The notes beneath the pieces were generated by a model. It saw only the letters and a list, made by a program, of their open reading frames with translations. It was not told where the DNA came from and ran no database searches. The translations under genes and the position numbers were made by a program. This document shows, one piece after another, positions 3,540 to 35,217 of a stretch of DNA of 36,090 nt. Position 1 is the first letter of the stretch; every line of letters starts with the position of its first letter. The stretch comes from Candidatus Peregrinibacteria bacterium (GTDB taxonomy: Bacteria > Patescibacteriota > Gracilibacteria > UBA1369 > LOWO2-01-FULL-3): positions 1 to 36,090 of the forward strand of contig JAUYJL010000014.1 of the NCBI GenBank assembly GCA_030688025.1, written 5' to 3'.

Positions 3540-6500
3540 ATGGCTGGTCCCGAATTAAATACAGAGGCCCCGAGGTTAAGCAATAATGTTGCCTTAAACT
3601 TCAAATATAACTTTAAAGACGAAAAACCTGAGGGGTTTGATGTCCTTAGGTGGAATCTGTATGCGGCTTGTTCTAGCGCAAGCCGAGCACTTGGATTTAA
3701 AGGAAGAGATATCTATTTAACTTCGAGTACTCAGTCCCGAGCGATAATGTCAGCCCTTAGGAACACCAAAATTAAAAGCCCTAGAAGCGACAAACAAGTG
3801 TCTGCATTGCTATATCTTAGAGTTTTGGCTGCCGAGAAAAAAATCGCAAAAATTGTAGTTAAAAAAAATTCTTCTTTTTCTTTTTTAGATAAAAATGGAG
3901 ATGAAATTTTCAGTTTCAATGAGCGTGGTGCTAACATAGAAGCTCTTTTGTCAGATTCTGTGCGTAGACGCAGAGGAATACAGGAATCTCTTTTGGGATT
4001 TCTTTCTCGAAAGACCAAAGAATTTGTCCGCAAGACGAAAAAAGCTTCTAAAAAGATCGGCATAGATTTCGATAGAGACGATTTTCAGCCATCGGAAAAA
4101 GTTCCGACTCTTGGGGTTGCAAGCCTCGAACAAGGATTTTCGCCTCTTGATTTGATGCGTACTTCCGGAAAGGCGCCTGATGTTATTGAAGATAGATTTA
4201 GAAAATTGGCCGTCTGTTCGTCTTATGCAACTCAATTGCTTATTCAAGAATTTGGAAAGACTGCTGTCGCTAGGGCCGGACTTATCAAAAACGGTAAATT
4301 CCCAAATGCTTGGGACATAAAAGAAAATGGGCTTAGGGCCGGCGGAATTTCTGTCGCCGCGAGCACAGTTAATTCTTTGAGACAAAGATCTGATGGGAGA
4401 ATGGAGGTCAGTAATAAGTCTGGCTATGTAAGAAATATCGGAAAAATTTTTGAGAATACGGATGATGGACATTATCCTTCTCTTATCACTGCTTTTCATT
4501 TTACGACTCATTATGCAAAATCGGTTGTTGCGGCAAATATGGCCAGAGACCCCGAATTTAGAAGTTATAATTCTCACGTTTTAGTGTGTATTGGAAGAGA
4601 AGATCCAAAATTTGCCGATGTTAAATCTAGAGGAAAATTAGAAAAATTTATACGATCAAAAACAAAAATTGCTTCTAAGTTTCATGGATTTTTGAACATA
4701 AAAATTTATAAAAAAGATGGTAGGGTTGTAGATCTTGCTTATAAAAAGACTCACGGCGTTACGGTGGAAGCCGGTGATCGTGTGTCTTGGCAAGACGTAT
4801 TGGTTTCAGATTTTTTCCACAGAAAAGAGCGAGTTTTGGGGTTGGCTTTATACGCTTCAAGCTCCATAGAAATTATTACGGAGCAGTTGGTTTTGAATGG
4901 AGTTAAGAAGGCCACGCCTAAATATGAAGCTGCGGATTATTTCCATTTTAAACCTGGTGCTTCAATCACCGTACAATTGAAAGAACGCTTTAATCTAGAC
5001 GACACCGGTGTTCGTTATTATTTGGCCGCGTTGGCAGATGCAGGAATTGACACGAATAGAGTTTCTCCAAAAACTATTATTCCTGTCTTCGATATTGCAA
5101 AAATGAAAGCGGGAATTGACGCCAAAGGTGGGCCTGAAAAAGTTTTGGCCAGCATAAGAATCGACAGGGCCAGAGATTATAATGAAAGCAGAACTGATGG
5201 AGCCTTCACGGTTTTGGAAGCGGGAAAAACTCCTTGGGATCATTTTGGAAAACATTTTGAATCGAATTTTAAAGGAAATCATGCGCTAACAAATGAGGAA
5301 AAAAATTATATTTTGAAGGCTGTCGATTGGAGTTGTCCGACGATGGATTTGGCGTCAACGCCAATCAGGTTTCAGGCTGGAGACAGCGTGTTTCTATCTT
5401 ACAAGCGGATTGGAGAGATCATCTCGGCCGTCAAAGAAATTCAGGCCAAAAAATTTGGAAAAAATGATTACGTTAAGATTATTAAACCCGGCGAATATCC
5501 TTATGGATTTGTTCAAAGCAGTTTTGATGCCGAAGCCGCGGCGCTTGGATATAAAACTCTTAGATATGAAAATTTGGATGGAACGGATAAAGGTTATCTT
5601 TTGCGTGTTCTTGATGTTTGCAGTGATGATGTGGATTTAGGGCTTACTTCTGACTCAAAAGGAAGAAGTCTGTTTAAACATTTTGTTGAGGGAGCAAGGC
5701 TTATTCTTAGAAAAACAGATTTGAAAAATGCAATTAAAATAATTGCTGAAAAACAGGAATTACAGGCTGCTCCGGAATCTGTCGCCTTATCAAGTTCCAA
5801 GGGAAAATTTGATGTTAATCCGGACGTAAAAACGGCTATCGATTCTGTTTTCGGGAACGATATTGTTGTCAGAAATTGTCTGTATTTAGTTTGGCTGAAC
5901 GAGCAGGCAAGAGGTGGATGGAGGGCCTTTGCAAAAAAAACATATGTGGCTGTTGGCGGAACGGCTCGTTCCGTTGGGGAATTCCAGATAAGAGTGACCA
6001 ACCAAGATTTGAAGGCGTGCCGCGGAATGTTTGAAAAACATGGAATTAAGCCTCCACAAAATCGAGATGAACTTGTCACTTTGGTAAGGGATAACTTAAC
6101 TGCCGCAACAATTGTCGCGGGAATGAGAATCAAAGAGTCCGCAACTTCATTTAGCCATTTTATGGTACGAAATGGAGAATCTCCTCATCTCCTTGATAAA
6201 AATTTCACTGTTATGACTGTGAATAGTTATAACAGGTCGATAGATTCCGTGTACAAAGCCGTTTTTCAAAACTGGGCTTATAATTTGGCAAGTCAATCTG
6301 GGGCTTCGGGCAAAGTGAATCTTTCTAATATAGATTCTTTGATCAAAGAGCCCGGAGCAAGAGCATCTGCAAAAAAGAATATTATTTTGACATTTAAAGC
6401 CGTTGCTGAAAAATTGATTGCCGAGGGAAAAATAAAATTTAGTGGAAATGTAGACAGAGAAGTTTCAAAAATTCTTACAAATAATATTGCCTTTATCGAA

Positions 6501-7073
6501 GGTGATCTTTTCCGCCAAATGAAGGGTTGGTATGAATCCGATTCAGGGAAAAAACTTTCGTTTGTTTTCACCAATCAAGAACTTGCGCGTGGAGATGGTG
6601 TTTTCTCTTATGGACAGCGTTTTCTGAAGCAAGAAAAAGCTTGGGGTGGCCTTTTCAAAGATCATACCGCTCTTGCATCTTCTTTTGATGAACTTGGAAA
6701 AGAGCCCGTGGTTGCCGCCTTTGTTCCGGAGATTGAGCATGAGAATATTGGCGCCAAGATGGTTGCGGAACGAAAAGAAGAGTTGAGAAAAAAATTATTT
6801 AGGTCTTGTGGAATTGATAGATGCTTAGTCGACGGGAATTTGACCTGTCAGGCAGATGGGATGCCTATGTATTCTCGTGCTGGAAGAGGAAAAGAATCAA
6901 TTTTGCCAGCTTATTCAAAATTACGCTTCGTTGATCTTGTTCAGGAAAATGGCGTCCTTTGGGCAAAAGTTGAAAAAGGAGGAGATGGAAATAAGAAAAA
7001 ACAAGTGGGATACGTTATGTTTAATCAAGATTTATTCGCTCCTGCTGAAGGCAATATTGCCACTGTCTGGTAA
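3540..7073 (+). CDS. Large uncharacterised protein with possible lysozyme-like and SH3-like regions
   Basis: A 1177-residue protein that I do not recognise as a whole. It has no signal peptide and no membrane segment. Around residues 780-900 a stretch resembles lytic-transglycosylase/lysozyme-like folds: a Glu at about 788 (VWLNEQARGG), then TARSVGEFQIRV near 805-817, comparable to the GLMQI/GPMQV turn of such enzymes, then a helical part with TVNSYNRS. The last 65 residues (from about 1108) look like a bacterial SH3 domain: SRAGRGKESILPAYSKLRFV, LWAKVEK, KKQVGYV. Two internal stretches (FKPGASITVQLKERF, FQAGDSVFLSYKRIGEII) vaguely recall LysM. Taken together a role on peptidoglycan is possible, but the lack of a secretion signal argues against certainty. 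It is transcribed alone between carB and pdxS from its own promoter. Confidence 0.85.
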   Translation: MAGPELNTEAPRLSNNVALNFKYNFKDEKPEGFDVLRWNLYAACSSASRALGFKGRDIYLTSSTQSRAIMSALRNTKIKSPRSDKQVSALLYLRVLAAEKKIAKIVVKKNSSFSFLDKNGDEIFSFNERGANIEALLSDSVRRRRGIQESLLGFLSRKTKEFVRKTKKASKKIGIDFDRDDFQPSEKVPTLGVASLEQGFSPLDLMRTSGKAPDVIEDRFRKLAVCSSYATQLLIQEFGKTAVARAGLIKNGKFPNAWDIKENGLRAGGISVAASTVNSLRQRSDGRMEVSNKSGYVRNIGKIFENTDDGHYPSLITAFHFTTHYAKSVVAANMARDPEFRSYNSHVLVCIGREDPKFADVKSRGKLEKFIRSKTKIASKFHGFLNIKIYKKDGRVVDLAYKKTHGVTVEAGDRVSWQDVLVSDFFHRKERVLGLALYASSSIEIITEQLVLNGVKKATPKYEAADYFHFKPGASITVQLKERFNLDDTGVRYYLAALADAGIDTNRVSPKTIIPVFDIAKMKAGIDAKGGPEKVLASIRIDRARDYNESRTDGAFTVLEAGKTPWDHFGKHFESNFKGNHALTNEEKNYILKAVDWSCPTMDLASTPIRFQAGDSVFLSYKRIGEIISAVKEIQAKKFGKNDYVKIIKPGEYPYGFVQSSFDAEAAALGYKTLRYENLDGTDKGYLLRVLDVCSDDVDLGLTSDSKGRSLFKHFVEGARLILRKTDLKNAIKIIAEKQELQAAPESVALSSSKGKFDVNPDVKTAIDSVFGNDIVVRNCLYLVWLNEQARGGWRAFAKKTYVAVGGTARSVGEFQIRVTNQDLKACRGMFEKHGIKPPQNRDELVTLVRDNLTAATIVAGMRIKESATSFSHFMVRNGESPHLLDKNFTVMTVNSYNRSIDSVYKAVFQNWAYNLASQSGASGKVNLSNIDSLIKEPGARASAKKNIILTFKAVAEKLIAEGKIKFSGNVDREVSKILTNNIAFIEGDLFRQMKGWYESDSGKKLSFVFTNQELARGDGVFSYGQRFLKQEKAWGGLFKDHTALASSFDELGKEPVVAAFVPEIEHENIGAKMVAERKEELRKKLFRSCGIDRCLVDGNLTCQADGMPMYSRAGRGKESILPAYSKLRFVDLVQENGVLWAKVEKGGDGNKKKQVGYVMFNQDLFAPAEGNIATVW

Positions 7074-9956: not shown

Positions 9957-10289
9957 TTAGAGAAGTTTTTCCATTTCTTCTTTTGTTTTTTCAAGTGCAA
10001 TATTTAATTCTTTTAAAGAAAGATTTTCTTTTTCATTCTTTGGGTAAATAAAAATCGGACACAATATTCCTTTTATTTCTAGAACAAAAATGTAAAGCCT
10101 ATATCCTCCGGATTTGCCTTTCCCCAGCCCTTGAATCCTCAGCTTATAAACATTGTTCCCTATGGAAACTGCTATTTCTTTTCTAAAATTTATTAAAACT
10201 TTTTTGAAGTGTTCTTTCAATTGAGCGTCTTTTTTCGTAAGGCGCTTTAATTGTTTCTTGAAAAAGTTTGTGACTATAAATCTATGCAT
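9957..10289 (-). CDS. RelE/HigB-like toxin
   Basis: A 110-residue basic protein. It has the RelE-superfamily pattern: N-terminal FxKQLKRLTKKD helices, then a beta sheet with the KGKSGGYRLYIFV strand typical of HigB/RelE mRNA interferases, then a last strand PIFIYPKNEKENLSLKEL. Toxins of this type cleave mRNA, often at the ribosome. The start overlaps the antitoxin end by 8 bp (10282-10289), which implies translational coupling. The antitoxin is encoded first, as usual for RelBE-like modules. Function is inferred from family features and gene pairing. Confidence 0.8.
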   Translation of the reverse strand: MHRFIVTNFFKKQLKRLTKKDAQLKEHFKKVLINFRKEIAVSIGNNVYKLRIQGLGKGKSGGYRLYIFVLEIKGILCPIFIYPKNEKENLSLKELNIALEKTKEEMEKLL

Positions 10290-10524
10290 CTTTTAATTGC
10301 TCGGTCAGGGATTTGAATTTCCCTTTTTTGTCCAACTTTGCAATTATTTCCGCTAATTCTTGTGTTGTTTTTTCGAAGCGGATTTCTTCCGGAGACTTGT
10401 GATATTTGTAAAATTTCACAAGAAACCTGAAAAATTCCGCCTTATTCGTGTATCCTTCCTCTTTCATTAGAGTTTTCACTTCTTTTTCTTGAGTATTGTT
10501 TATTTTAAAGAATACGGTTGCCAT
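10282..10524 (-). CDS. Ribbon-helix-helix antitoxin, partner of the 9957-10289 toxin
   Basis: An 80-residue protein. The N-terminal TVFFKINNTQEKEVKTLM followed by GYTNKAEFFRFLVKFY fits a MetJ/Arc-type ribbon-helix-helix DNA-binding domain, and the charged C-terminal half would wrap the toxin. Upstream on the minus strand a TTGCAA box and a TAACAT or TATAAC -10 candidate are present. A near-palindrome ATATAACATTACTATAT lies around 10556-10575 and could be the autoregulatory operator. The leader is long and AT-rich. Antitoxin role rests on the paired toxin and the RHH pattern. Confidence 0.75.
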   Translation of the reverse strand: MATVFFKINNTQEKEVKTLMKEEGYTNKAEFFRFLVKFYKYHKSPEEIRFEKTTQELAEIIAKLDKKGKFKSLTEQLKDA

Positions 10525-18986: not shown

Positions 18987-19289
18987 ATGAGTACAGTTTT
19001 AAGCACCCGTATCGAAGAAAAATTAGCAAAAAGGCTGGAGGCTGCCAGTAAAAAATCCAACCTCGATAAGACCTCGCTGATCAGAATAGTTCTCCTGAAG
19101 GGTCTAAAAGAGATGGAAGAAGATGATGCTCTTGAATCTTATAGGCAAGGTGAAATTTCTCTCGGAAAGCTTGGAGATTTATTAAACCTCAATAAATGGG
19201 ATGCCATCAACCTGTTAACTGAGAAAAAAATCTCCCTCAACTACGGCAAGGAAAATTTTGAAGATGATATAAAAATTCTGAATACATGA
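18987..19289 (+). CDS. UPF0175-family antitoxin with ribbon-helix-helix N-terminus
   Basis: 100 residues. The first half (STVLSTRIEEKLAKRLEAAS ... DKTSLIRIVLLKGLKEM) is a ribbon-helix-helix type DNA-binding segment. The second half (ALESYRQGEISLGKLGDLLN, then KWDAINLLTEKKISLNYGKENFEDD) matches the UPF0175 helix-turn-helix family. UPF0175 proteins are commonly paired with DUF3368 PIN-domain toxins, as here. The toxin start overlaps the stop in an ATGA (19286-19289), so translation is coupled. It is expected to neutralise the toxin and to repress the locus through the GTATAC palindromes upstream. Confidence 0.88.
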   Translation: MSTVLSTRIEEKLAKRLEAASKKSNLDKTSLIRIVLLKGLKEMEEDDALESYRQGEISLGKLGDLLNLNKWDAINLLTEKKISLNYGKENFEDDIKILNT

Positions 19290-19759
19290 AATTAGTTTCC
19301 AATAGCTCTCCATTAATATTTCTGGCTAAATTAAATTTTCTGGAATTGTTATCAAAAGATCAAATACTCATACCGTCTGGCGTACAGAAAGAAATTTTAG
19401 CAAAAGAATCTGCCGAAAAGGACGGGCTAATCCGATTTTTCAGAGAGAAAAATGTCACTATTTTAAGTCTAAAAAATAAAAACATACGAAGTTCCTCTCT
19501 AGGAATAGGGGAAATTGAAGCCGTAAACCTAGCCCTAGAGCAACAGGCTACTCACGTTCTAATGGATGATAGGCGAGCCTGCTCATTTGCAAAGATTCAA
19601 AATCTTGAACCACACGGGACTCTATGGATAATACTAAGAGCCTATAAGAATCGTGACCTCACAAAAACCCAAGCCCGTGATCTGATCTACGACCTTCCCT
19701 CCGTCGGGTTTCGGATCGGTCAGGAATTTTTATTCCAAGTTCTGAAAAAACTGGATTAA
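19286..19759 (+). CDS. PIN-domain (DUF3368-type) ribonuclease toxin
   Basis: 157 residues with the PIN/VapC-like order of acidic residues: N-terminal VSNSSPLIFLAKLNFLELL (the first Asp of classical PIN is replaced by Asn-Ser, as is usual in DUF3368), a central Glu pair in GIGEIEAVNLALEQ, and HVLMDDRRACSFAK with the later Asp residues. It ends with a C-terminal helical part (GTLWIILRAYKNRDLTKTQA). Such toxins are Mg-dependent RNases. It is translated from an ATGA overlap with the antitoxin. Base composition looks slightly richer in C and A than its neighbours, compatible with horizontal arrival but not proof. Confidence 0.85.
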   Translation: MKLVSNSSPLIFLAKLNFLELLSKDQILIPSGVQKEILAKESAEKDGLIRFFREKNVTILSLKNKNIRSSSLGIGEIEAVNLALEQQATHVLMDDRRACSFAKIQNLEPHGTLWIILRAYKNRDLTKTQARDLIYDLPSVGFRIGQEFLFQVLKKLD

Positions 19760-22085: not shown

Positions 22086-22343
22086 ATGAGATCGATTATG
22101 AGTATATCTTTGCCCTCTGAAAAAAAGGCTGAGCTTGAAAAAAGGGCTAAAAAAGCAGGAAAAACCGTGAGTTCTTATGTCATGTATCTTGCCGATCTTG
22201 AAAAAAACATGATTTCCGAGGATGAGCTTGTGGAAATAGTGAAACTGTCTGAAGCCGCTTACAAGGCTGGAAAAACAAAAGTTGTTTCGAGTTTATCTGA
22301 ATTAATGACTAAAAATGCGAATAAGAAAAATCCATTATTATGA
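22086..22343 (+). CDS. Ribbon-helix-helix-like antitoxin
   Basis: 85 residues (81 if Met5 at 22098 is used). The N-terminal MSISLPSEKKAELEKRAKKA, then KTVSSYVMYLADLE, is a typical RHH strand-helix-helix of RelB/CopG-type antitoxins. The C-terminal half (SEAAYKAGKTKVVSSLSELM) resembles the toxin-binding tail. It overlaps the toxin start by 29 bp, so the two are translationally coupled. Expected to bind the tandem 11 bp repeats at 22015-22036 and repress the locus together with the toxin. Confidence 0.8.
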   Translation: MRSIMSISLPSEKKAELEKRAKKAGKTVSSYVMYLADLEKNMISEDELVEIVKLSEAAYKAGKTKVVSSLSELMTKNANKKNPLL

Positions 22344-22587
22344 TATTTTTGCCAAACAGTTTGATTCTTTGCCTGTCGAAATAAAGAGAAAAGTTGTCAA
22401 GCAGGAACTGCTTTTAAAAGAAAATCCTTTTCATCCCTCCCTCAGGCTTCATAAGCTTAGGGGTAGACTTGACGGGTTTTGGAGTATTTCCATAGATATG
22501 AAATATAGATTGATTTTCAGTATTATCGATAAAGAGACTGTTTTGTTTCATAGCGTTGGTGTACACGCTATTTATGAGGATTTTTAA
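22315..22587 (+). CDS. RelE/ParE-superfamily toxin
   Basis: 90 residues with a clear RelE-like pattern: YYDIFAKQFDSLPVEIKRKV, LLLKENPFHPSLRLHKLRGR, GFWSISIDMKYRLIFSI, and a last strand ETVLFHSVGVHAIYED. The HPSLRxHKLxGxLxGxWSISI core is characteristic of the RelE/YoeB-like mRNA interferase and ParE groups. The start codon lies within the antitoxin gene. Which target (mRNA or gyrase) it has cannot be told from sequence alone. Confidence 0.87.
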   Translation: MRIRKIHYYDIFAKQFDSLPVEIKRKVVKQELLLKENPFHPSLRLHKLRGRLDGFWSISIDMKYRLIFSIIDKETVLFHSVGVHAIYEDF

Positions 22588-25380: not shown

Positions 25381-26130
25381 ATGTGGACTTATCTTTTATT
25401 GTTTTTGAGTATTTCGCTTTTTGTCGGAGTGTTTGCTCGCAGGGCTTACATTTTGAAGGTTAAAAAAAATGAACCTCCTGTTCAGAAAAAATCACTTATA
25501 GACGACGAACCCCTTGATATTGATGAAAATAAAAAACTTTCAAAACAAGAAAAAATCGATATTTCCGATCTGTGTGAAAAGGCTGACGTGAAACTTAAAG
25601 TTGGGGAAGAGGATGAAGCTATAAGGTTGCTTGTGCAGGCTTTAGCTGTTGATCCTGCAAATACTACAGCTCAGCAAAAACTTGCGATGCTGTATATGCA
25701 AAAACAGATGTATTCTGCGGCGGCGGCTCTTTTTAAACAACTTGGAGAGCTTACAAATGACGCAGTTCACTATAGTAATCTTGGGTTGGCGCTTTATCAA
25801 CAACAGGAGTTTGAGGCGGCTAAAGAGGCCTACCAGAGGGCTGTAGCGCTCGATCCTTCTCGTCCGCAAAGGTTTATCAGTCTTGCGCAGGTTTACAGAA
25901 GCTTGGACCAGCTTTCGAATGCTGTTGTTGCGGCAAATAAAGCTCACGACATGGATCCAGAAAATATGGATTTTTTATTTTTACTTGCCGATTTACACAT
26001 GGACTCGAAAAATTATGACGAGTCCGTGAGTGTTTTAACTAAAATTATAGAGGCTGACCCAGGTAACACCGAAGCAAAGACCTACTTAAAGAAAGTCAAA
26101 AAGGCTAAAAGCGAGGAAGAAAAAGTTTAA
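25381..26130 (+). CDS. Membrane-anchored tetratricopeptide-repeat protein
   Basis: 249 residues. One N-terminal membrane helix (WTYLLLFLSISLFVGVFARR) is followed by a charged linker (about 28-62) and at least five TPR units from about residue 62: ADVKLKVGEEDEAIRLLVQA, AQQKLAMLYMQKQMYSAAAA, VHYSNLGLALYQQQEFEAAK, RFISLAQVYRSLDQLSNAVV and DFLFLLADLHMDSKNYDESV. With such a layout it probably scaffolds envelope or assembly complexes from the cytoplasmic side or outside; topology is undecided. It follows holB after 4 bp. Its stop overlaps that of the convergent pentapeptide gene by 4 bp. Confidence 0.88.
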   Translation: MWTYLLLFLSISLFVGVFARRAYILKVKKNEPPVQKKSLIDDEPLDIDENKKLSKQEKIDISDLCEKADVKLKVGEEDEAIRLLVQALAVDPANTTAQQKLAMLYMQKQMYSAAAALFKQLGELTNDAVHYSNLGLALYQQQEFEAAKEAYQRAVALDPSRPQRFISLAQVYRSLDQLSNAVVAANKAHDMDPENMDFLFLLADLHMDSKNYDESVSVLTKIIEADPGNTEAKTYLKKVKKAKSEEEKV

Positions 26131-26870
26131 TGATTCGTTTGCTCTAAAACGGCTTCTACTGAGGCGACGATGCGTTTTCCCGCTAAATGTATGGAAGATC
26201 GTGTTTCTCCAGGACTTGTTTTTTCCGGAAGGGTTGTTTTGCTGTTAAACTTTACGCCTAGCACCGTTAAGACCTTCGCCTTTCTCCCTTTTTGGTCAGT
26301 AACTTCTCCCAGATAACCTGTGTCCATTTCTGTCGTTCTCATTTGCGCTCCTCTTATGTCTGAGCCATGAAGAATCGAGCAGGATAAGTCCGCTAAAGAA
26401 AAATCTGCGTTTTGAAGATTTGCATCCCTTAGGTTTGCTGATGATATCATCGCCTTTGAACAATTTGCTCCTTCTAGGTTTGCGTTTTCTAAATTTGAGC
26501 CGATGAAGCTTGTTCTTTGTAGATTTGCGCCACTCAGATTTACCCCACTAAGATTTATTTGCTCAAAACGTTTTCCTGAAAAATCCGGTTTCCATTGCGG
26601 AAACTGAGCCCTTAATGCGTTAAAGGCATTTACGCCTGCTCGAATGAGGGTTTCTCCCGCTGAGTTTAATTGTTCATCAAGCTGTTTTTTGCTGAGACTT
26701 CTAATTGAAACTACCGCCCCAGTGATTCTTTCCCCCGTACCAAATTGCGCCATAAAAATCATATCTCCTGTGGCTGTGCCGCCCATAGAAGTCTGCTCGA
26801 GGCTTATTTTAACCTCTCTCACCCCTACTTCTGCCTCTTCTTCCTTTTTTACACCTTCTGGCGTTGTCAT
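26127..26870 (-). CDS. Pentapeptide-repeat protein
   Basis: 247 residues. Residues about 115-190 hold a run of pentapeptide repeats with the central Leu/Phe pattern: FEQINLSGVNLSGANLQRTS, FIGSNLENANLEGANCSKAM, SSANLRDANLQNADFSLADL, which would fold as a right-handed quadrilateral beta helix. The N-terminal 110 residues are beta-rich followed by a helical piece (LSKKQLDEQLNSAGETLIRA); the C-terminus is unknown. No signal peptide. Some pentapeptide proteins mimic DNA and protect gyrase, but this one has only about 14 repeats and no proof of that role. The promoter lies at 26897-26925. Confidence 0.85.
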   Translation of the reverse strand: MTTPEGVKKEEEAEVGVREVKISLEQTSMGGTATGDMIFMAQFGTGERITGAVVSIRSLSKKQLDEQLNSAGETLIRAGVNAFNALRAQFPQWKPDFSGKRFEQINLSGVNLSGANLQRTSFIGSNLENANLEGANCSKAMISSANLRDANLQNADFSLADLSCSILHGSDIRGAQMRTTEMDTGYLGEVTDQKGRKAKVLTVLGVKFNSKTTLPEKTSPGETRSSIHLAGKRIVASVEAVLEQTNH

Positions 26871-26944: not shown

Positions 26945-28729
26945 TTACTGTTTTATAATTGATGGATCTTTCGAGTTTTCAGCGTCTCCCACGAGGATTT
27001 TATCGGGGACAGCTTTGTAGTGAGTCCTAATTTCTTCTTCGTTTTTTGTTCCGTCTTTTGTTGTAATAATTCTTTGCCACAAGACGTCGAAGCCTGTGTG
27101 GGCTTTTTCAACCTGCTTTGTTTGCCCCCTCAAAAGGTCTTTTGTTTTTTCGTAAACCGTTTCGCCCGGATATTTGTATCCTGAAATTTCCGGACCTTTC
27201 ATTTCCACAGATCTTCCGTCCGAAGTTCCATAAAAAATAAAATACAATTCATTGTCTTTGTCCACATGTGTCTGCACTAAAATCGAGTTTTCTGTGTCGT
27301 TTAAAAACTTTAAATCGGCGCCTCCGAGATAAATCGTTGCGTCCAAGCCGTGACCTAAAACCTGAGAATAATACGAAACAGCGTACGAATGCTCGTTTCT
27401 TTCGACCACCGGAAGTCCCGCGAAAAGTATTGCCCTATACATGGTCGTTGAAACTTGGCAAATTCCTCCGCCATATTCTGGAATTGTTCCCTCCGGTTTT
27501 ATCACTAACTCTTCCCTGTATCCTGTTGATTTATCCACTTTTCCAAGATTTTTATTGAAAGAAAAAGTGTCGCCCGGCTTTATTAATTTTCCGTTAAATT
27601 TTCCCGCGCCTGTTTTTATATTATATTTTCTATTTATTGGTGATCCATAATATGAAGTGTGGCCTACACTAAGCCTTTCTTTGATTCCTAATTCTCGTAA
27701 ATCTTCCGAGACAGTAATGGTTGGAACTATTTTTTCAGTTGGGACTTCTATCTCTGTTTTTTCCTCATTTATTGCGGCCTCGAAATTTGTTAGAAGTAAA
27801 TCTCTTTGTACGCTTATTCCATCTTTTCCCACACCGTCTATCGCGGGGTTTCCTTTTTCATCTGTGTAAATTTTTACTTCGTCAGCTTTTACATCCAACC
27901 ATTTTGAAACATTTTCATTTAAAAATTCATCTAGTTTTTCTTTTTTTATCGTTACTGTGATGTACTTTTTCCCGTCCTCTTCTCTCCATTCAAAACCAAC
28001 CCAGTCCAAGTGTTTTAGCGGTTTTATGTACCAATCGTCTCGATAAATTGGATCAGAAAGGGTGACAACATTTGATAATTTGCTTATCATCGCTGGTTTT
28101 TCTTTTTCCAAATCTTCTTTGTTTTTTTCCGGTGGCGCAGGTGAAATTTCTATTTTTAATGCCGCTGGCGTTAGGTTTTTTGTAGACTGTTCTATTCCTT
28201 TTATCAATTTTTCTTCTTTAATTACGTATCCAGCTTCACCGTCTGTTATTTGTAAAGTGTTTTTTTCGTCCACCGAGAAAATGGCTGACTTTGGGTAAAA
28301 TTCCTTTATTTTTAATTTTTCATCTAGCTCTTTTATTAATTTCTTTTTATCTACTTTTACTATTAAATTTTTTGTTTCCCCTTTTATTGAAAAATCTGGA
28401 AATATTTTGTTTTTCAAGTCCATGGTTTTTATTTCCGCCAGAGTTTCGTTTGTTAAAAACTCAACCCCGAGGTCTTTCATCGTGCTTGTTGCCACAACAT
28501 CTTTAACTGATATTTTTATCTCTTTATTTAAAAATCTTTCCTCCTCTTTTAGAAGTTCTTTTTCTGCGGCTGGTTTTGTTAAAAACCCTATTTTTACCCC
28601 AGAAACGACCGTTTCTTTTGGAAACTTCCCATCCAGATAAATTCTTGCACCCAAAACGGCGGCTGCAAAAAACATTCCGGAAATAATTCCGACAAAAACA
28701 GACAGAATAAGTTTTTTAAACATTTTCAT
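26945..28729 (-). CDS. VanW-family cell-wall protein with PG_binding_4-like region
   Basis: 594 residues. One N-terminal membrane helix (KLILSVFVGIISGMFFAAAV) leads to an extracytoplasmic part. Residues about 40-330 hold duplicated YoaR-like/PG_binding_4-type modules (e.g. VSGVKIGFLTKPAAEKELLK at the start). The VanW domain is at about 350-510: SYYGSPINRKYNIKTGAGKF, IKPGDTFSFNKNLG, YGGGICQVSTTMYRAILFAG and RNEHSYAVSYY. The C-terminal tail is beta-rich and Lys-rich, similar to the G5-like ends seen in this family. VanW was named from vancomycin-resistance clusters, but most members are of unknown biochemistry and are widespread in Gram-positives and CPR. Last gene of the rny-ytxH-vanW run; its ATG follows the ytxH stop with no gap. 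Confidence 0.92.
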   Translation of the reverse strand: MKMFKKLILSVFVGIISGMFFAAAVLGARIYLDGKFPKETVVSGVKIGFLTKPAAEKELLKEEERFLNKEIKISVKDVVATSTMKDLGVEFLTNETLAEIKTMDLKNKIFPDFSIKGETKNLIVKVDKKKLIKELDEKLKIKEFYPKSAIFSVDEKNTLQITDGEAGYVIKEEKLIKGIEQSTKNLTPAALKIEISPAPPEKNKEDLEKEKPAMISKLSNVVTLSDPIYRDDWYIKPLKHLDWVGFEWREEDGKKYITVTIKKEKLDEFLNENVSKWLDVKADEVKIYTDEKGNPAIDGVGKDGISVQRDLLLTNFEAAINEEKTEIEVPTEKIVPTITVSEDLRELGIKERLSVGHTSYYGSPINRKYNIKTGAGKFNGKLIKPGDTFSFNKNLGKVDKSTGYREELVIKPEGTIPEYGGGICQVSTTMYRAILFAGLPVVERNEHSYAVSYYSQVLGHGLDATIYLGGADLKFLNDTENSILVQTHVDKDNELYFIFYGTSDGRSVEMKGPEISGYKYPGETVYEKTKDLLRGQTKQVEKAHTGFDVLWQRIITTKDGTKNEEEIRTHYKAVPDKILVGDAENSKDPSIIKQ

Positions 28730-28963
28730 TTATTTGTCTTTTTTTCTAAAAATGTGTGTAATTTTATGAAAAAATGAGAATGATTTTTCTTTTGCAGTTG
28801 ATGCTATTTCTTTTATATCATTTCTTGTCTCAACCCCTTTTTTTGGCGCTATAGACGCCCCAAGCACTGAACCTATTGCGCCACCAATTATTGCTCCCAT
28901 CACAACCTTATCAAGGATTTTTGATTTTCCGTCTGATTTTTCTTCGGGTTTTTCTTCTGACAT
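28730..28963 (-). CDS. YtxH-like small membrane protein
   Basis: 77 residues: an acidic-basic N-terminus (SEEKPEEKSDGKSKILDK), one glycine-rich membrane segment (VVMGAIIGGAIGSVLGASIAP), then the KKGVETRNDI basic stretch characteristic of YtxH-domain proteins and a short amphipathic tail (FFHKITHIFRKKDK). YtxH proteins are general-stress-linked in Bacillus, with unknown mechanism. It lies between rny and vanW, one base after the rny stop, so the three are surely one transcript. Confidence 0.8.
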   Translation of the reverse strand: MSEEKPEEKSDGKSKILDKVVMGAIIGGAIGSVLGASIAPKKGVETRNDIKEIASTAKEKSFSFFHKITHIFRKKDK

Positions 28964-28964
28964 A

Positions 28965-30512
28965 TTATTTTGTTGATGCGGCTATTTCTGTTTTCTCAAC
29001 TTTTCTTATTATATTTACCCTTATTTTTCCAGGGTAAACAACGTTTTCTTCTATTTTTCCTGCTAGTTTTTTTGCGATTTCTCTCATGTTTTCGTCTGTT
29101 ATCTTTTCAGGGTCAACAAACGCTCTAATATCTCTTCCTGCTGACATTATAAAGGACTTCTGGATTTCGCTAAACTCTTTTATAGTTTCGTCTATTTGTT
29201 GGATTCTATCTGAGTAGCTATATCGTGATTCTTGCCTTGCGCCCGGTCTTCCTGCAGAGACAGCATCTGCCGCTTTTATAATTAACGCTTCCGGTGTTTT
29301 TTGTTTTTCTGAATCATGGTGTGCCCATGCCGCATTCACTTGGTCATCTGTGAATCCGTATTTTTCCATAAGCTCTTTTGTGATCCGATCGTGTGCGTCT
29401 TTTTCTCCCGGCTCTTGGTCTATTGCTTTTCCAAGGTCATGCAAAAATCCACTTATTCTACACATTTCTACGTCTAACCCAAGTTCGCCACCAATCATCA
29501 CTGCAACCCATGCAACCTCCATTGAGTGCTTCATAATATTTTGTCCATAACTAGTCCTATATTGTAACCTTCCAATTATTCTTATTAACTCTTTGTCTGT
29601 TGTTTCAGAATACATCCCAAGCCTTTCTAATGCCGCTTTTCCAATTCCGTATAACTCTTTATCTACATCAACACCTGCGTCTTTTATTGTTTTAACAACA
29701 ACATCTTTTGTTATATCTCCTGAAAGTCTTATTAGTTTTTCTATAGCCACCTGTGCGATTCTTCTTGTGACTAAATTAAAACATGACACGCTTATCGTAT
29801 TAGGAAGGTCGTTAAAAATAACCGCGACGTCTAGGTGTTTTTCAAATTCTTCTATATTTTTCCCGTTTTTTCCAACTATTTTTCCTTTTATAAAGTCTTT
29901 TGGAACCGTTATGTTTACAGATCTAGATTCAACAGACGTTGGAGAGGTTATCCTTTGTATAATATTGATAAGAATTTTTTGCGCTATCTTTTGTGTGTTT
30001 TCTTTCAAAAACTCTTCTTCTTTTGCCAGCCTTTCTACTGCTTCATTTTCAAGGTCAACTCTATATCCATCAAGTATTTCTTTTTTTTGTTGTTCAATTG
30101 TTTTTCCGGCTTTTTTTGAAAGCTCTACAATTTGTTTTTCCTCTAATAATTTTCCTTCTTCTTGTTTTTTCTTTAACTCTTCTTTATCTGTTGTGATCTT
30201 CAAACTCATCTCTTTAAACCTCTCTTCTTTTTTTAAAAATGATTTTTCCCTCAACTCCGTCAACTCCTCTATTTTTTTAATTCTTTCTTTTCTTTTTTCC
30301 GTGTCTTCTTCTGAGCTTTTTTTAAAATTTTCAACTTTTAATAAAATCTCTTCTTTTATTTTTACAGCGTCCTCTTTTGTTTTCACTAAAAGTTCTTGAG
30401 CCTCTTTCTTTTTTTTCTCAACATCTATAAGGTCTGTGCCTTTGTAAAAAAAATATACAAGACCTCCCGTTAAAACTAATGAAATTAAAGTTGTTACTAT
30501 GTTTTGTGTCAT
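28965..30512 (-). CDS. rny: Ribonuclease Y
   Basis: 515 residues, full length. N-terminal membrane anchor (VTTLISLVLTGGLVYFFYKG), long charged coiled coil (about 30-190), KH domain (SVNITVPKDFIKGKIVGKNG and NIEEFEKHLDVAVIF), then the HD domain (from about 320): YGQNIMKHSMEVAWVA, metal-binding GFLHDLGKAID, AHDRITKELMEKYG and NAAWAHHDSEKQ. RNase Y is the main decay-initiating endonuclease in Firmicutes and many CPR, tethered to the membrane. First gene of the minus-strand operon; a consensus-like promoter at 30554-30582 drives it. It diverges from dnaN across the 30.5-30.8 kb gap. Confidence 0.97.
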   Translation of the reverse strand: MTQNIVTTLISLVLTGGLVYFFYKGTDLIDVEKKKKEAQELLVKTKEDAVKIKEEILLKVENFKKSSEEDTEKRKERIKKIEELTELREKSFLKKEERFKEMSLKITTDKEELKKKQEEGKLLEEKQIVELSKKAGKTIEQQKKEILDGYRVDLENEAVERLAKEEEFLKENTQKIAQKILINIIQRITSPTSVESRSVNITVPKDFIKGKIVGKNGKNIEEFEKHLDVAVIFNDLPNTISVSCFNLVTRRIAQVAIEKLIRLSGDITKDVVVKTIKDAGVDVDKELYGIGKAALERLGMYSETTDKELIRIIGRLQYRTSYGQNIMKHSMEVAWVAVMIGGELGLDVEMCRISGFLHDLGKAIDQEPGEKDAHDRITKELMEKYGFTDDQVNAAWAHHDSEKQKTPEALIIKAADAVSAGRPGARQESRYSYSDRIQQIDETIKEFSEIQKSFIMSAGRDIRAFVDPEKITDENMREIAKKLAGKIEENVVYPGKIRVNIIRKVEKTEIAASTK

Positions 30513-30553
30513 TTTTCCAGTTTTTATTAAATCTCTTTAAATATTGCCGGTTC

Positions 30554-30582
30554 ATTATACTTTATTAAAATATGTATAGCAA
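30554..30582 (-). promoter_or_regulatory. rny operon promoter
   Basis: Minus strand TTGCTA (30582-30577), 17 bp, TATAAT (30559-30554). Leader about 40 nt; CTGGAAAA before the ATG is the closest thing to a Shine-Dalgarno sequence in the window. Confidence 0.7.
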
Positions 30583-30780
30583 AGTCTTAAAGGGGTTTTG
30601 AACAACTTTTACACTTATTTTTATAGTTTTTATGTTTTATTTTGATCAACTTTTTTGTTTTTTGTTTAAATTAAGGCGTTTATTTGGTTTGTTTTATTTA
30701 CAATGTTTTTAAGGTTTTGGGTAGTCACTACTATTACTATTTAATATATATATTGTTTATTATAAATATTCTTATATAAT
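30583..30780 (+). other. Candidate replication-origin region upstream of dnaN
   Basis: The 314 bp rny-dnaN gap is the longest gene-free stretch here. It contains a one-mismatch DnaA box TTATTTACA (30694-30702), a weaker TTTTACACT (30607-30615), a G-rich patch (30711-30725), then CTA-CTA-TTA-CTA (30728-30739), which has the (C/T)TA period of the DnaA-trio, followed directly by a 40 bp almost pure A/T tract (30740-30780). From memory, this trio-then-AT-rich order resembles the Bacillus subtilis dnaA-dnaN unwinding region. Genes diverge from it on both sides. dnaA is not in the window and perfect DnaA boxes are lacking, so origin status is inference. Confidence 0.4.
30753..30780 (+). promoter_or_regulatory. 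dnaN promoter
   Basis: TTGTTT (30753-30758), 16 bp, TATAAT (30775-30780), embedded in the AT-rich tract. Leader about 40 nt. Confidence 0.65.
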
Positions 30781-30826
30781 GCGAGTGGCGATAGAAAAGT
30801 TTTTGTAACAGGTTAAATTTAAACAT

Positions 30827-31933
30827 ATGAAACTCTTTTGTTCACAGAGAGATTTGGATTCAGCTCTTAATATCGTAAACAAAGCGATAAGTCCAAATAA
30901 CACATTACCAGTTTTAAATAATATTTTAATAAAGGCTGAAAGTAAAAGACTTTATTTTTCTTCAACAAATTTAGAAATAGCTATAAGTTGTTCAATTTCC
31001 GCAGACATTAGAAGCGAAGGATCAATCACAGTTCCTGCGAAATTAATAACAAGTTATGTTTCTCTTTTATCAGATGAAAAAGTTGAAATGAGCGTCACAG
31101 AGGGGCTTAATTTAGCTATAAACTCAACATCTTCTTCCACAAAAATTAAATGTATTTCAGCGGACGAATTTCCTTTGATTCCAAAAATAGAAAAAGAACA
31201 AGAATTTTCTATAAAAAACTCAAAACTTTATGAGGCAATAACTGAAACCGTGTTTGCAGCATCTCTAAACACATCAAGGCCTGTTTTGTCAGGAGTTTAT
31301 TTATATTCAAAAGATAAAGAAGTGTGTTTTGCCGCTACAGACAGTTATAGATTGGCGGAAAAAACCGTAGGTGTAGAGAATAAACCAAACGGGAATATTT
31401 CTTGTATTATTCCAGCTAGAACAATGATGGAGCTATCTAAAATTATAAGTAAATCCGGAGATGATGAAGTTAAAATAAGTGTTTCCAAAAATCAAATATT
31501 GTTTTTAATTGGAGACACCGAGCTTATTTCAAGGCTTATAGAAGGGAAGTTTCCTGATTACGAAAAAATCATTCCAAAGGAAAATAAAACAAAACTTGAA
31601 ATTTCTACCGAAGACTTTTCTCTTGTGCTTAAAAGGGTTAGCCTTTTTGCCAGAGAAAACAATAATAGCGTGAAGCTTTCCGCCACAAACGATGGGAAAC
31701 TTACCGTTTCTTCCGAGGAAACCAAAGTTGGAGAAGAAAAAGCGGAAATCGCTATAAAAATCGAAGGTGATAATAATAAAATTTCCCTAAACGCTCAATA
31801 TTTACTTGATGTTTTAACTTACATAGGGGAGGATAAGGTTACATTCTCCCTGAACGATAATGTTTCTCCGGCAGTTATAAGGCCGGTTAAAGGGGATGAC
31901 TATGTTTACATTATAATGCCACTTAAGGCCTAG
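30827..31933 (+). CDS. dnaN: DNA polymerase III beta subunit (sliding clamp)
   Basis: Ring-shaped processivity clamp. 368 residues, full length, three repeated clamp domains. N-terminal MKLFCSQRDLDSALNIVNKA and NNTLPVLNNILIKAE; middle domain PVLSGVYLYSKDKEVCFAAT-DSYRLAEK; later LISRLIEGKFPDYEKIIP; third domain ends VIRPVKGDDYVYIIMPL, the standard C-terminal M-P-x-x-hydrophobic segment that forms part of the peptide-binding pocket. The start ATG 30827 fits the family. It is the first gene of a two-gene run with mfd (8 bp gap). No dnaA or recF is adjacent. Confidence 0.97.
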   Translation: MKLFCSQRDLDSALNIVNKAISPNNTLPVLNNILIKAESKRLYFSSTNLEIAISCSISADIRSEGSITVPAKLITSYVSLLSDEKVEMSVTEGLNLAINSTSSSTKIKCISADEFPLIPKIEKEQEFSIKNSKLYEAITETVFAASLNTSRPVLSGVYLYSKDKEVCFAATDSYRLAEKTVGVENKPNGNISCIIPARTMMELSKIISKSGDDEVKISVSKNQILFLIGDTELISRLIEGKFPDYEKIIPKENKTKLEISTEDFSLVLKRVSLFARENNNSVKLSATNDGKLTVSSEETKVGEEKAEIAIKIEGDNNKISLNAQYLLDVLTYIGEDKVTFSLNDNVSPAVIRPVKGDDYVYIIMPLKA

Positions 31934-31941
31934 ATCTTTAC

Positions 31942-34900
31942 ATGAAAAATATAATCTCCTTCTTTCCCGAGGGGGAGCTTAAAGAGGCTGCGGATCTTTT
32001 TGCGGGATCTAGTAATATTAGCTTTTCTGGTGCAGGAAATAGCTCTTCTAAGGCTATGTTGATTAGCCGAATATATGGGGACGCAAAAGTTGGGATTGGA
32101 AATAGTCTTTGGATTGTTAACGACCCAGGTGACCAACATCTTATTAAAAATGCTATAGAGATGTGGGGAGATAGAGAGGTTTTTATTTACAAAAAACGCG
32201 GGGACGACGAGAAGGCTTCTTTTCCAACATTAAGTAGTTTTGAGAGAGATAAACAACTTTCTGTTATAGAGTTTGTTTCTAGGGTTTTTACACACAAGAA
32301 TGCGGTTTTTGTTGTTGATTTTCTTTCTATTTTGCAAACTTTTCCAGACGCAAGAAGGCTTGATGAGACTAAAATTTCTTTAAAAAAGGGTGGAGAGATT
32401 GATCTTGTTTTGTTTGTGGAAAATCTTGTTAATTTGGGATACGAAATCACAGACGATAAGATTCTTAAAAAAGGCGAATATTATCGTGTTGGGGATAGTT
32501 TGTTAGTTTGGCCAATCAATAGTGAAAATGTTTTAAGAATTGAGTTTGGTTTTGATAAAATTGAGGATATGTTTTTTGTTGAAAACCTCGATTACTCTGT
32601 GCCACACAAAAGGCTTACCTCTGCCGATATTTTTCCGATAGAGTGTGACAGTGAGACTTCTGATGTTACAAATTTTTTTAGTAAAAAAGATTTAATAATT
32701 GACGACGAAATAGATGTTGTTGATGATTATTATGAGGTGTGGAATGAGTTTTTGGATAAAGCTACAGGGTTATGTAAAACAGTTTCTTTTTCTTCTTTTA
32801 ATGAAGACGAAAGGACACATTTACATTTACATTTTTTATCTGTTTTGAAGTACAGAAGTGCGTACGATTTAGCTAACGATATTCGTGATAAAATAGCCAA
32901 CAATTGGAAGATTTTATTCTTCACAAAAAATACAGAATACGTTCGAGGGCTTTTTACTGATCAAGGTGTTCCTTTTGTGGTTGGAATGAGTGATGTTAAC
33001 TTTGGAGGGAAGTCCGTTTTTCTTTTGAATGTCGAGAAGGAAGACTCTTTTCCTGTTTCTTTTCAAGCGCCGAAGCTAAAGGTTATTTTAATAAATGATA
33101 CTGACGTTTCTTTTGTTAAAGATGAGAAGAGAGCTAGAAACGTTTCGCGAAATATTTTTGATGACTTTTTAACAAGCCTTAAGTCTGGAGATTTTGTGGT
33201 ACATACTGACCACGGAATTGCGAAATTTATGGGGCTTGATCAAAAAACTGTTGATGGAATTACGAAAGAATATTTAAAGCTTGGGTATGCGGAAAACGAT
33301 AAACTTTTTGTGCCGATTGATCAGGCGGATAAGGTTAGTAAATATATCGGATCCGAGGAGTCTATGCCAAAACTTACGCGTCTTGGAAGCGCGGAGTGGA
33401 ACACAATTACAAGTAAAGTTCGAAAAGAAACACAGAAGATTGCGAAAGAACTTTTGAAGCTTTATGCGGAAAGGAGAACAGCGAAAGGTTTTGGTTTCAG
33501 TAAAGATATAGATTTGCAGGAAAAATTCGAAGAAACGTTTCCGTACGAGGAGACTCCGGGGCAAATAAAAGCCATAAATGACACTAAGGCTGATATGGAA
33601 AAACCTGTTCCTATGGATAGGCTTGTTTGTGGAGATGTTGGGTTTGGAAAGACCGAAGTTGCGATGAGGGCGGCGTTTAAAGCAATTCAAAGTAAGAAGC
33701 AAGTTGCGTTTATTTCGCCGATTACAATTTTGGCGGATCAGCATTATAAATCTTGCAAAAAAAGGATGGAACCTTTCAATATTCGCGTTGAAATGATGAG
33801 TCGTTTTAGGAGCGCCAAAGAGCAAAAAGAGACATTGGCAAGGCTTGCAAAAGGGGAAGTTGACCTTGTTGTCGGCACACATAGATTGATTCAGCCGGAT
33901 GTAAAATTTAAAGATCTTGGGCTTGTGATTATTGATGAGGAACAAAGATTTGGGGTAAAACAGAAAGAAAAATTTAAAGAACTCAGAAGGGAGGTGGATA
34001 TACTTACATTGACCGCCACACCTATCCCTAGGACTCTAAATATTTGTTTAAACAAGCTTAGGGATATAACAACGATAACGACTCCACCTTTTGGTCGATT
34101 GCCTATTATAACGGAAGTAAGGAAGTATTCTCCAAGTCTTGTTCGCGAGGCGATTTTGACTGAAGTTAAAAGAGGTGGGCAGGTTTATTTTTTACATAAC
34201 AGGGTTCAAACTATCGATAGTGTGGCGGATAAATTGCGTGCGCTTGTGCCGGAGGCGAGGTTTGGTGTTGCGCATGGAAAACTCGGAAGTGGAGATCTTG
34301 AAGATAGAATTATGTCGTTCAAAGAGGGAAAATTCGACGTTCTTGTAAGTTCGACAATTATTGAAAACGGAATTGATTTATCTAATGCGAATACATTGAT
34401 TGTGAATAATGCGGAGAGGTTTGGTTTGTCGCAATTATATCAATTACGTGGACGTGTTGGGCGCGGAAAGGCGCAAGCTTATGCGTATTTCTTGTATCAA
34501 GGGCAGAGGTTGAAGTTGGATGCGAAAAAGAGACTTCGTGCGATTGTTGAGGCTTCAGAGCTTGGAAGTGGATTCCAAATTGCAATGAAGGATCTTGAAA
34601 TTCGTGGAGCCGGAGACATTCTTGGGGCGAATCAGCATGGTGTTATAAATGTGGTTGGAGTTTCACATTTTATGAGGATGCTTAATCGTGCGGTTGAGGA
34701 TCTTAAGGCCGGCAGAATTGCTGATGGTGAAGAGGAAATAACGGATGTTACAGTTGAGCTTCCGGTTGAAGCGTATATTCCGGATGAGTATGTTCCTGAC
34801 GCAAAAGACAAGATTTCGGCTTATCAAAAGCTTTCTTCGGCGGATAGCGTTGAATACTTAAAAGATGTTCAGGAAGATATGATTGAGGATTATGGAAAAA

Positions 34901-35217
34901 TGCCCGAAGAGGTTAAAAATTTGTTTAATATCATTGAACTTAAGATTTTTGCGAAGGCGGCGGGATTGATTAATGTTAAAGCGGAAAGCGTGCCTATGAG
35001 TAAGGAAAAAGAGATTGTTTTGATTATGTCTAAGAAAGTTAAGCCTGCAAATATAATTAGCCTGCTTGAGTTTAATTCTAAGTGGATGATCTCAGGAACA
35101 CGGCTTAGAATAAACGTAAAAGACCTCGGGGTGGACTGGTTTGGTATGTTGAAAGAATGTGCAAAAGCTCTCGGTCAAAGTGCAAAACATGGAGCGAGAA
35201 GTGCAAAAGTAGAGTGA
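31942..35217 (+). CDS. mfd: Transcription-repair coupling factor Mfd
   Basis: Removes RNA polymerase stalled at DNA lesions and recruits UvrA. 1091 residues. The RNA polymerase interaction (CarD-like) domain is at about 410-480 (FVVHTDHGIAKFMGL, KEYLKLGYAENDKLFVPIDQ). The RecG-like translocase follows: Walker A CGDVGFGKTEVAMRAAF (near 565), ISPITILADQH, VDLVVGTHRLI, Walker B-type IIDEEQRFGVKQKEK, LTLTATPIPRTLN, VSSTIIENGIDL and QLRGRVGRGKAQAYAYFLY. The TRCF C-terminal domain (VELPVEAYIPDEYV) is present. The UvrB-like N-terminal third is poorly conserved, without a visible ATPase motif, which is normal for Mfd. It forms a dnaN-mfd transcript; a hairpin overlaps its stop. Confidence 0.96.
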   Translation: MKNIISFFPEGELKEAADLFAGSSNISFSGAGNSSSKAMLISRIYGDAKVGIGNSLWIVNDPGDQHLIKNAIEMWGDREVFIYKKRGDDEKASFPTLSSFERDKQLSVIEFVSRVFTHKNAVFVVDFLSILQTFPDARRLDETKISLKKGGEIDLVLFVENLVNLGYEITDDKILKKGEYYRVGDSLLVWPINSENVLRIEFGFDKIEDMFFVENLDYSVPHKRLTSADIFPIECDSETSDVTNFFSKKDLIIDDEIDVVDDYYEVWNEFLDKATGLCKTVSFSSFNEDERTHLHLHFLSVLKYRSAYDLANDIRDKIANNWKILFFTKNTEYVRGLFTDQGVPFVVGMSDVNFGGKSVFLLNVEKEDSFPVSFQAPKLKVILINDTDVSFVKDEKRARNVSRNIFDDFLTSLKSGDFVVHTDHGIAKFMGLDQKTVDGITKEYLKLGYAENDKLFVPIDQADKVSKYIGSEESMPKLTRLGSAEWNTITSKVRKETQKIAKELLKLYAERRTAKGFGFSKDIDLQEKFEETFPYEETPGQIKAINDTKADMEKPVPMDRLVCGDVGFGKTEVAMRAAFKAIQSKKQVAFISPITILADQHYKSCKKRMEPFNIRVEMMSRFRSAKEQKETLARLAKGEVDLVVGTHRLIQPDVKFKDLGLVIIDEEQRFGVKQKEKFKELRREVDILTLTATPIPRTLNICLNKLRDITTITTPPFGRLPIITEVRKYSPSLVREAILTEVKRGGQVYFLHNRVQTIDSVADKLRALVPEARFGVAHGKLGSGDLEDRIMSFKEGKFDVLVSSTIIENGIDLSNANTLIVNNAERFGLSQLYQLRGRVGRGKAQAYAYFLYQGQRLKLDAKKRLRAIVEASELGSGFQIAMKDLEIRGAGDILGANQHGVINVVGVSHFMRMLNRAVEDLKAGRIADGEEEITDVTVELPVEAYIPDEYVPDAKDKISAYQKLSSADSVEYLKDVQEDMIEDYGKMPEEVKNLFNIIELKIFAKAAGLINVKAESVPMSKEKEIVLIMSKKVKPANIISLLEFNSKWMISGTRLRINVKDLGVDWFGMLKECAKALGQSAKHGARSAKVE

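Follow-up and report, generated by a model that had tools for sequence, protein, structure and literature searches.

The region immediately upstream of dnaN in this small genome of an uncultured Candidatus Peregrinibacteria bacterium is very probably the site at which chromosome replication starts, and base composition in its relatives suggests that, unlike nearly all known bacterial main chromosomes, this chromosome is copied around the circle in one direction instead of two. The analysed window is a whole contig of 36,090 bp (C26) of a 1.18-Mb, 34-contig genome (G000; 98% complete), and the closest named relative found is Candidatus Peregrinibacteria CG_4_10_14_0_2_um_filter_38_24 (dnaN 96% identical). 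The most likely reading, with a probability of about 0.68, is that positions 30583-30826 are a DnaA-dependent origin from which replication proceeds almost wholly by one fork through dnaN and mfd, with the terminus just behind the origin. As no replication was measured, DnaA binding, strand opening, fork direction and loss of the left fork are inferred, and for this draft genome the one-way mode is an extension from relatives.

Searches with curated models confirmed dnaN (30827-31933, + strand; TIGR00663, 314 bits), mfd (31942-35217, + strand; TIGR00580) and rny (28965-30512, - strand), although rny falls below the cut-off of its model, which is nevertheless its best match over the full length. 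The rny gene runs left and dnaN-mfd right, and the divergent intergenic region (30513-30826), the putative oriC, has a G+C content of 22%. The gene for DnaA is found on another contig (C30:64850-66259), and in a complete relative (G007; one contig of 998,424 bp) dnaA (854-856 kb) and dnaN (196-197 kb) are also far apart. In Patescibacteria of other groups (loci L098-L101, L103), by contrast with the rny-dnaN arrangement observed here, dnaN has an unidentified same-strand neighbour of about 445-510 codons directly upstream, starting about 1.5-1.8 kb before dnaN, where dnaA would be expected. No Rfam elements were found in the window. Elsewhere in the contig, small toxin-antitoxin-like pairs (RelE-like; UPF0175 + DUF3368; HigB/YafQ-like) are scattered at 9957-10524, 18987-19759 and 22086-22587, and a 1177-aa ORF without any Pfam match (3540-7073, + strand) is located just upstream of pdxS.

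The first-pass annotation had proposed an origin here on the basis of a DnaA-trio-like tract, an adjoining A/T tract and a one-mismatch DnaA box, and these elements were confirmed. The trio tract CTACTATTACTA at 30728-30739, i.e., 3'-GAT-GAT-AAT-GAT-5' on the - strand, consists of four in-frame triplets and is the only ([CT]TA)x4 run on either strand of the window. The tract that follows (30740-30780) is nearly, not wholly, A/T: positions 30740-30779 hold 2 G/C in 40, the lowest of any 40-mer in the window, and the 60 bp from 30721 are its least stable duplex. The one-mismatch box TTATTTACA at 30694-30702 (+ strand) ends 25 bp before the trio, but single one-mismatch boxes are common (159 in the window against 110 expected), so it means little alone. 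Similarly, exact TTATNCACA boxes were not informative, as 60 scattered sites occur in the genome with no cluster at dnaN or dnaA. What the first-pass annotation missed is a tandem of DnaA-box-like TTTTNNACA sites about 130 bp upstream of the trio (30596-30615, + strand), composed of TTTTGAACA (30596-30604) and TTTTACACT (30607-30615) with 11-bp spacing and followed by a third weak unit, TTTTTATAG, at 30618-30626, as well as the conservation of the whole arrangement.

Comparison of the upstream regions of dnaN from the genus, family and order revealed a common plan in the direction of dnaN: two or three TTTTNNACA sites spaced 11 bp, about 100-150 bp, a TGTAAA(C) or GTAAACCCC element in many, in some relatives TGTAAAC directly before the trio, a CTA-rich trio, and a TATATATTAATA-like tract. 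Among 39 regions, the trio (>=8 of 9 to CTACTACTA) occurs in 25, against 2.05 in dinucleotide shuffles (maximum 6) and 0 on the opposite strand, whereas the tandem (>=13 of 14) occurs in 22, against 0.65 in shuffles (maximum 4) and 2 on the opposite strand, with 11-bp spacing almost throughout. These regions include close relatives, so the counts are not all independent, and the motif was defined partly on the sequences on which it was then tested. Members of other orders of the class (for example L161, L162, L165) do not show the arrangement by eye and were left out of the count. Within the genus, 66 of 67 positions of the core block with the trio and A/T tract (30714-30780) are identical in four genomes, one of which has a 2-bp TA insertion, while over the same pairs dnaN is 82-91% and rny 75-90% identical in DNA.

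A combined box+trio score has its best site at exactly this place in about 440 kb of this genome and in 400 kb of G007 (21 against 19 for the next). The dnaA neighbourhood does not compete: the region around L001 2980-3268, next to dnaA, has single boxes only and no high-scoring box+trio site. It could be argued that the conserved block is only the promoter and a DnaA-regulated control region of dnaN, with the true origin elsewhere, since a possible -10 box of dnaN, TATAAT (30775-30780), lies in the A/T tract, conservation in the genus extends to it, and DnaA boxes can act in regulation. However, a trio with phased boxes about 130 bp upstream is not needed for a promoter, no better site was found in the 440 kb examined or near dnaA, and the step in strand composition is at dnaN, making this explanation very unlikely. 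Thus, an origin at dnaN without dnaA beside it, as the first-pass annotation had suggested, is well supported.

The cumulative GC skew minimum near 30.7 kb expected by the first-pass annotation is present only locally. In the window, the 4-5 kb left of dnaN are negative and the right side is positive (mfd, the first long gene of the strongly G-skewed side, has a skew of +0.54 at fourfold-degenerate (4D) sites), but further left the skew is positive again, in genes of both orientations, and 5-30 kb upstream is positive overall. Notably, in G007 one strand is G-rich all the way round. All of the 20 sampled 20-kb stretches have negative + strand skew (-0.19 to -0.39), and the 4D skew is -0.71 in + genes and -0.64 in - genes, with 136 of 138 + genes and 136 of 139 - genes (272 of 277 scored genes) in agreement. 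Gene-strand bias was rejected as the cause, because gene numbers on the strands are nearly equal (138 vs 140) and both strands have the same 4D sign. In G007 the skew steps at dnaN and declines downstream. A count of GGTGGTG over the whole G007 genome agrees (30 forward, 486 reverse), while six other complete genomes of the class are much nearer balance (20/16 to 22/39). As a contig-wise test, such counts were too noisy in this genome (54/59 over all contigs, the orientation of which is arbitrary) and in the family member G015 (91/154, with blocks of either sign).

In other family members, no mirrored arm was seen. On the dnaN strand, the 4D skew upstream and downstream is +0.38 to +0.59 (to -217 kb) and +0.59 to +0.75 in G021, +0.26 to +0.42 (to -183 kb) and +0.46 to +0.53 in G015, and +0.03 (only 10 kb available) and +0.54 to +0.70 (to 213 kb) in G004. 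In G001, of the same genus, it is about 0 (to -121 kb) and +0.17 to +0.35, then -0.05 at 99-119 kb, and in G019 it is -0.01 and +0.41, then +0.18. G040 and G031, of other families, are weak and unclear. Several contigs of the present genome have skew near zero; the sampled ones range from about 0 to 0.57, with a smooth gradient along the 187-kb contig C15, which fits a one-way gradient but cannot prove it without contig order. It is possible that the site is an ordinary two-way oriC in this genome and that the one-sign skew is peculiar to the lineage of G007, given that the upstream skew in G000 and G001 is much weaker, near zero, and negative within about 4-10 kb. This appears unlikely, as the upstream skew is not the mirror image of the downstream skew in any family member with long contigs. 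In G137, of another order, the skew on contig C3 (L218-L224) is one-sign overall but strong only from about 780 kb onwards (dnaN at 881 kb), so that the step lies 100-260 kb upstream of dnaN, indicating a moved origin or an inversion; the claim is therefore limited to this family.

The zone of dipped or reversed skew behind the origin (26945-30512, - strand) comprises a VanW-like gene (26945-28729) and rny, with 4D skews of -0.19 and -0.44. In 14 family members, rny has lower 4D skew than mfd in 13 (p 0.0004) and lower than the genes 4-10 kb upstream in 13 (p 0.001), and the VanW-like gene is lower than those in 12, although the p values are optimistic because the 14 are related. Opposite-strand genes elsewhere do not show such a dip, so gene orientation alone is a poor explanation. 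This pattern is expected if a leftward fork, where it exists, dies within about 4 kb and the fork coming round the circle ends there. Alternatively, replication may be two-way with very unequal arms, the left fork being stopped by a barrier or meeting the right fork a few kb upstream, so that the terminus merely lies beside the origin. A short left arm would give such a dip, and the same two options were named for Ch65 (PMC7143001), but the dip also coincides with two leftward genes and no barrier was found, nor any convincing dif-like site in a scan with two dif consensus sequences; this alternative remains tentative. At the left edge of the dip, 4 kb behind the origin, a pentapeptide-repeat protein (PF00805) is encoded at 26127-26870 (- strand), where most family members have a gene of the other orientation; QnrB, a pentapeptide-type resistance protein, is reported to bind DnaA (PMC6617969).

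The genome encodes a full-length DnaA (473 bits to TIGR00362), the best match of which among solved structures is B. subtilis DnaA (8btg; aligned over domains I, III and IV). It has GGRNHTTV in the DNA-binding domain where B. subtilis has GGRDHTTV, which may relate to the divergent boxes. In the proposed mechanism, DnaA binds the distal 11-bp-phased boxes and the trio-proximal box, spreads onto the - strand of the trio and opens the A/T tract. In B. subtilis, DnaA on the trio strand is thought to guide one helicase to that strand, while DnaD guides the second to the opposite strand (PMC10201434). A rightward fork needs the helicase on the + strand (5'->3'), opposite the trio. If the proposal is right, the productive fork here is the one that B. 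subtilis loads through DnaD, and the fork on the trio strand, which must pass back through the boxes, is lost. DciA-type loaders were found in 6 of 7 genomes. Fork direction rests on the usual rule that the leading strand is G-rich and on the side of the dip, and gene orientation gave contradictory results: rRNA lies on the G-rich strand in the four genomes where this can be read, but rpoB and rplB in G007 and G004, and rpoB on contig C18 of G000, lie on the C-rich strand, head-on to the proposed fork, which is unusual for essential highly expressed operons. Direction is thus less sure than one-wayness. It is more likely than not that in this family the single main chromosome is copied by one fork from a natural DnaA/DnaA-trio oriC that fires productively in one direction only. 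Bidirectional replication is treated as a rule for main bacterial chromosomes, and such a lineage, with related lineages that work two ways, would show which origin elements and loaders are needed for the second fork. It would also invalidate peak-to-trough growth estimates that assume two arms, and it gives a compact conserved origin to use for vectors in uncultured Patescibacteria.

According to the literature, monotonic cumulative GC skew with little gene-strand bias has been reported for the small chromosomes of Ch65, Collierbacteria and Beckwithbacteria (Microgenomates), for which unidirectional theta replication was proposed (Kadnikov 2020, PMC7143001). No origin was located there, their rRNA genes are on the C-rich strand, while here they are on the G-rich one, and Peregrinibacteria were described as typical two-way replicators. 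No report of one-way replication in the present lineage, or of its connection to a located DnaA origin, was found among open-access papers, subscription papers and preprints being outside the search. Unidirectional replication, with one-sign skew and the terminus near the origin, has been shown by read depth for Pseudoalteromonas chromids (PMC7858055), but these are secondary, plasmid-derived replicons started by RepA at ori2, not main chromosomes with a DnaA-trio oriC. In Candidatus Peribacter riflensis, also of the Peregrinibacteria, DnaA-box-like repeats were reported at the origin, yet the skew has the ordinary two-way form (PMC4736985), and two complete genomes of another family of the class sampled here (G155, G176; two G176 stretches were masked) also show weak skew that changes sign. 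With the basal unwinding system of Bacillus subtilis (incC DnaA boxes 6/7 and DnaA-trios; PMC6669920, PMC8287927), the present region shares direct CTA/TTA triplets (3'-GAT-5' on the bottom strand) between box-like sites and the dnaN side, distal plus possibly proximal boxes, and an A/T tract. It differs in that dnaA is not adjacent, the box consensus is TTTTNNACA rather than TTATCCACA, the distal boxes are 11 bp apart, and replication seems one-way.
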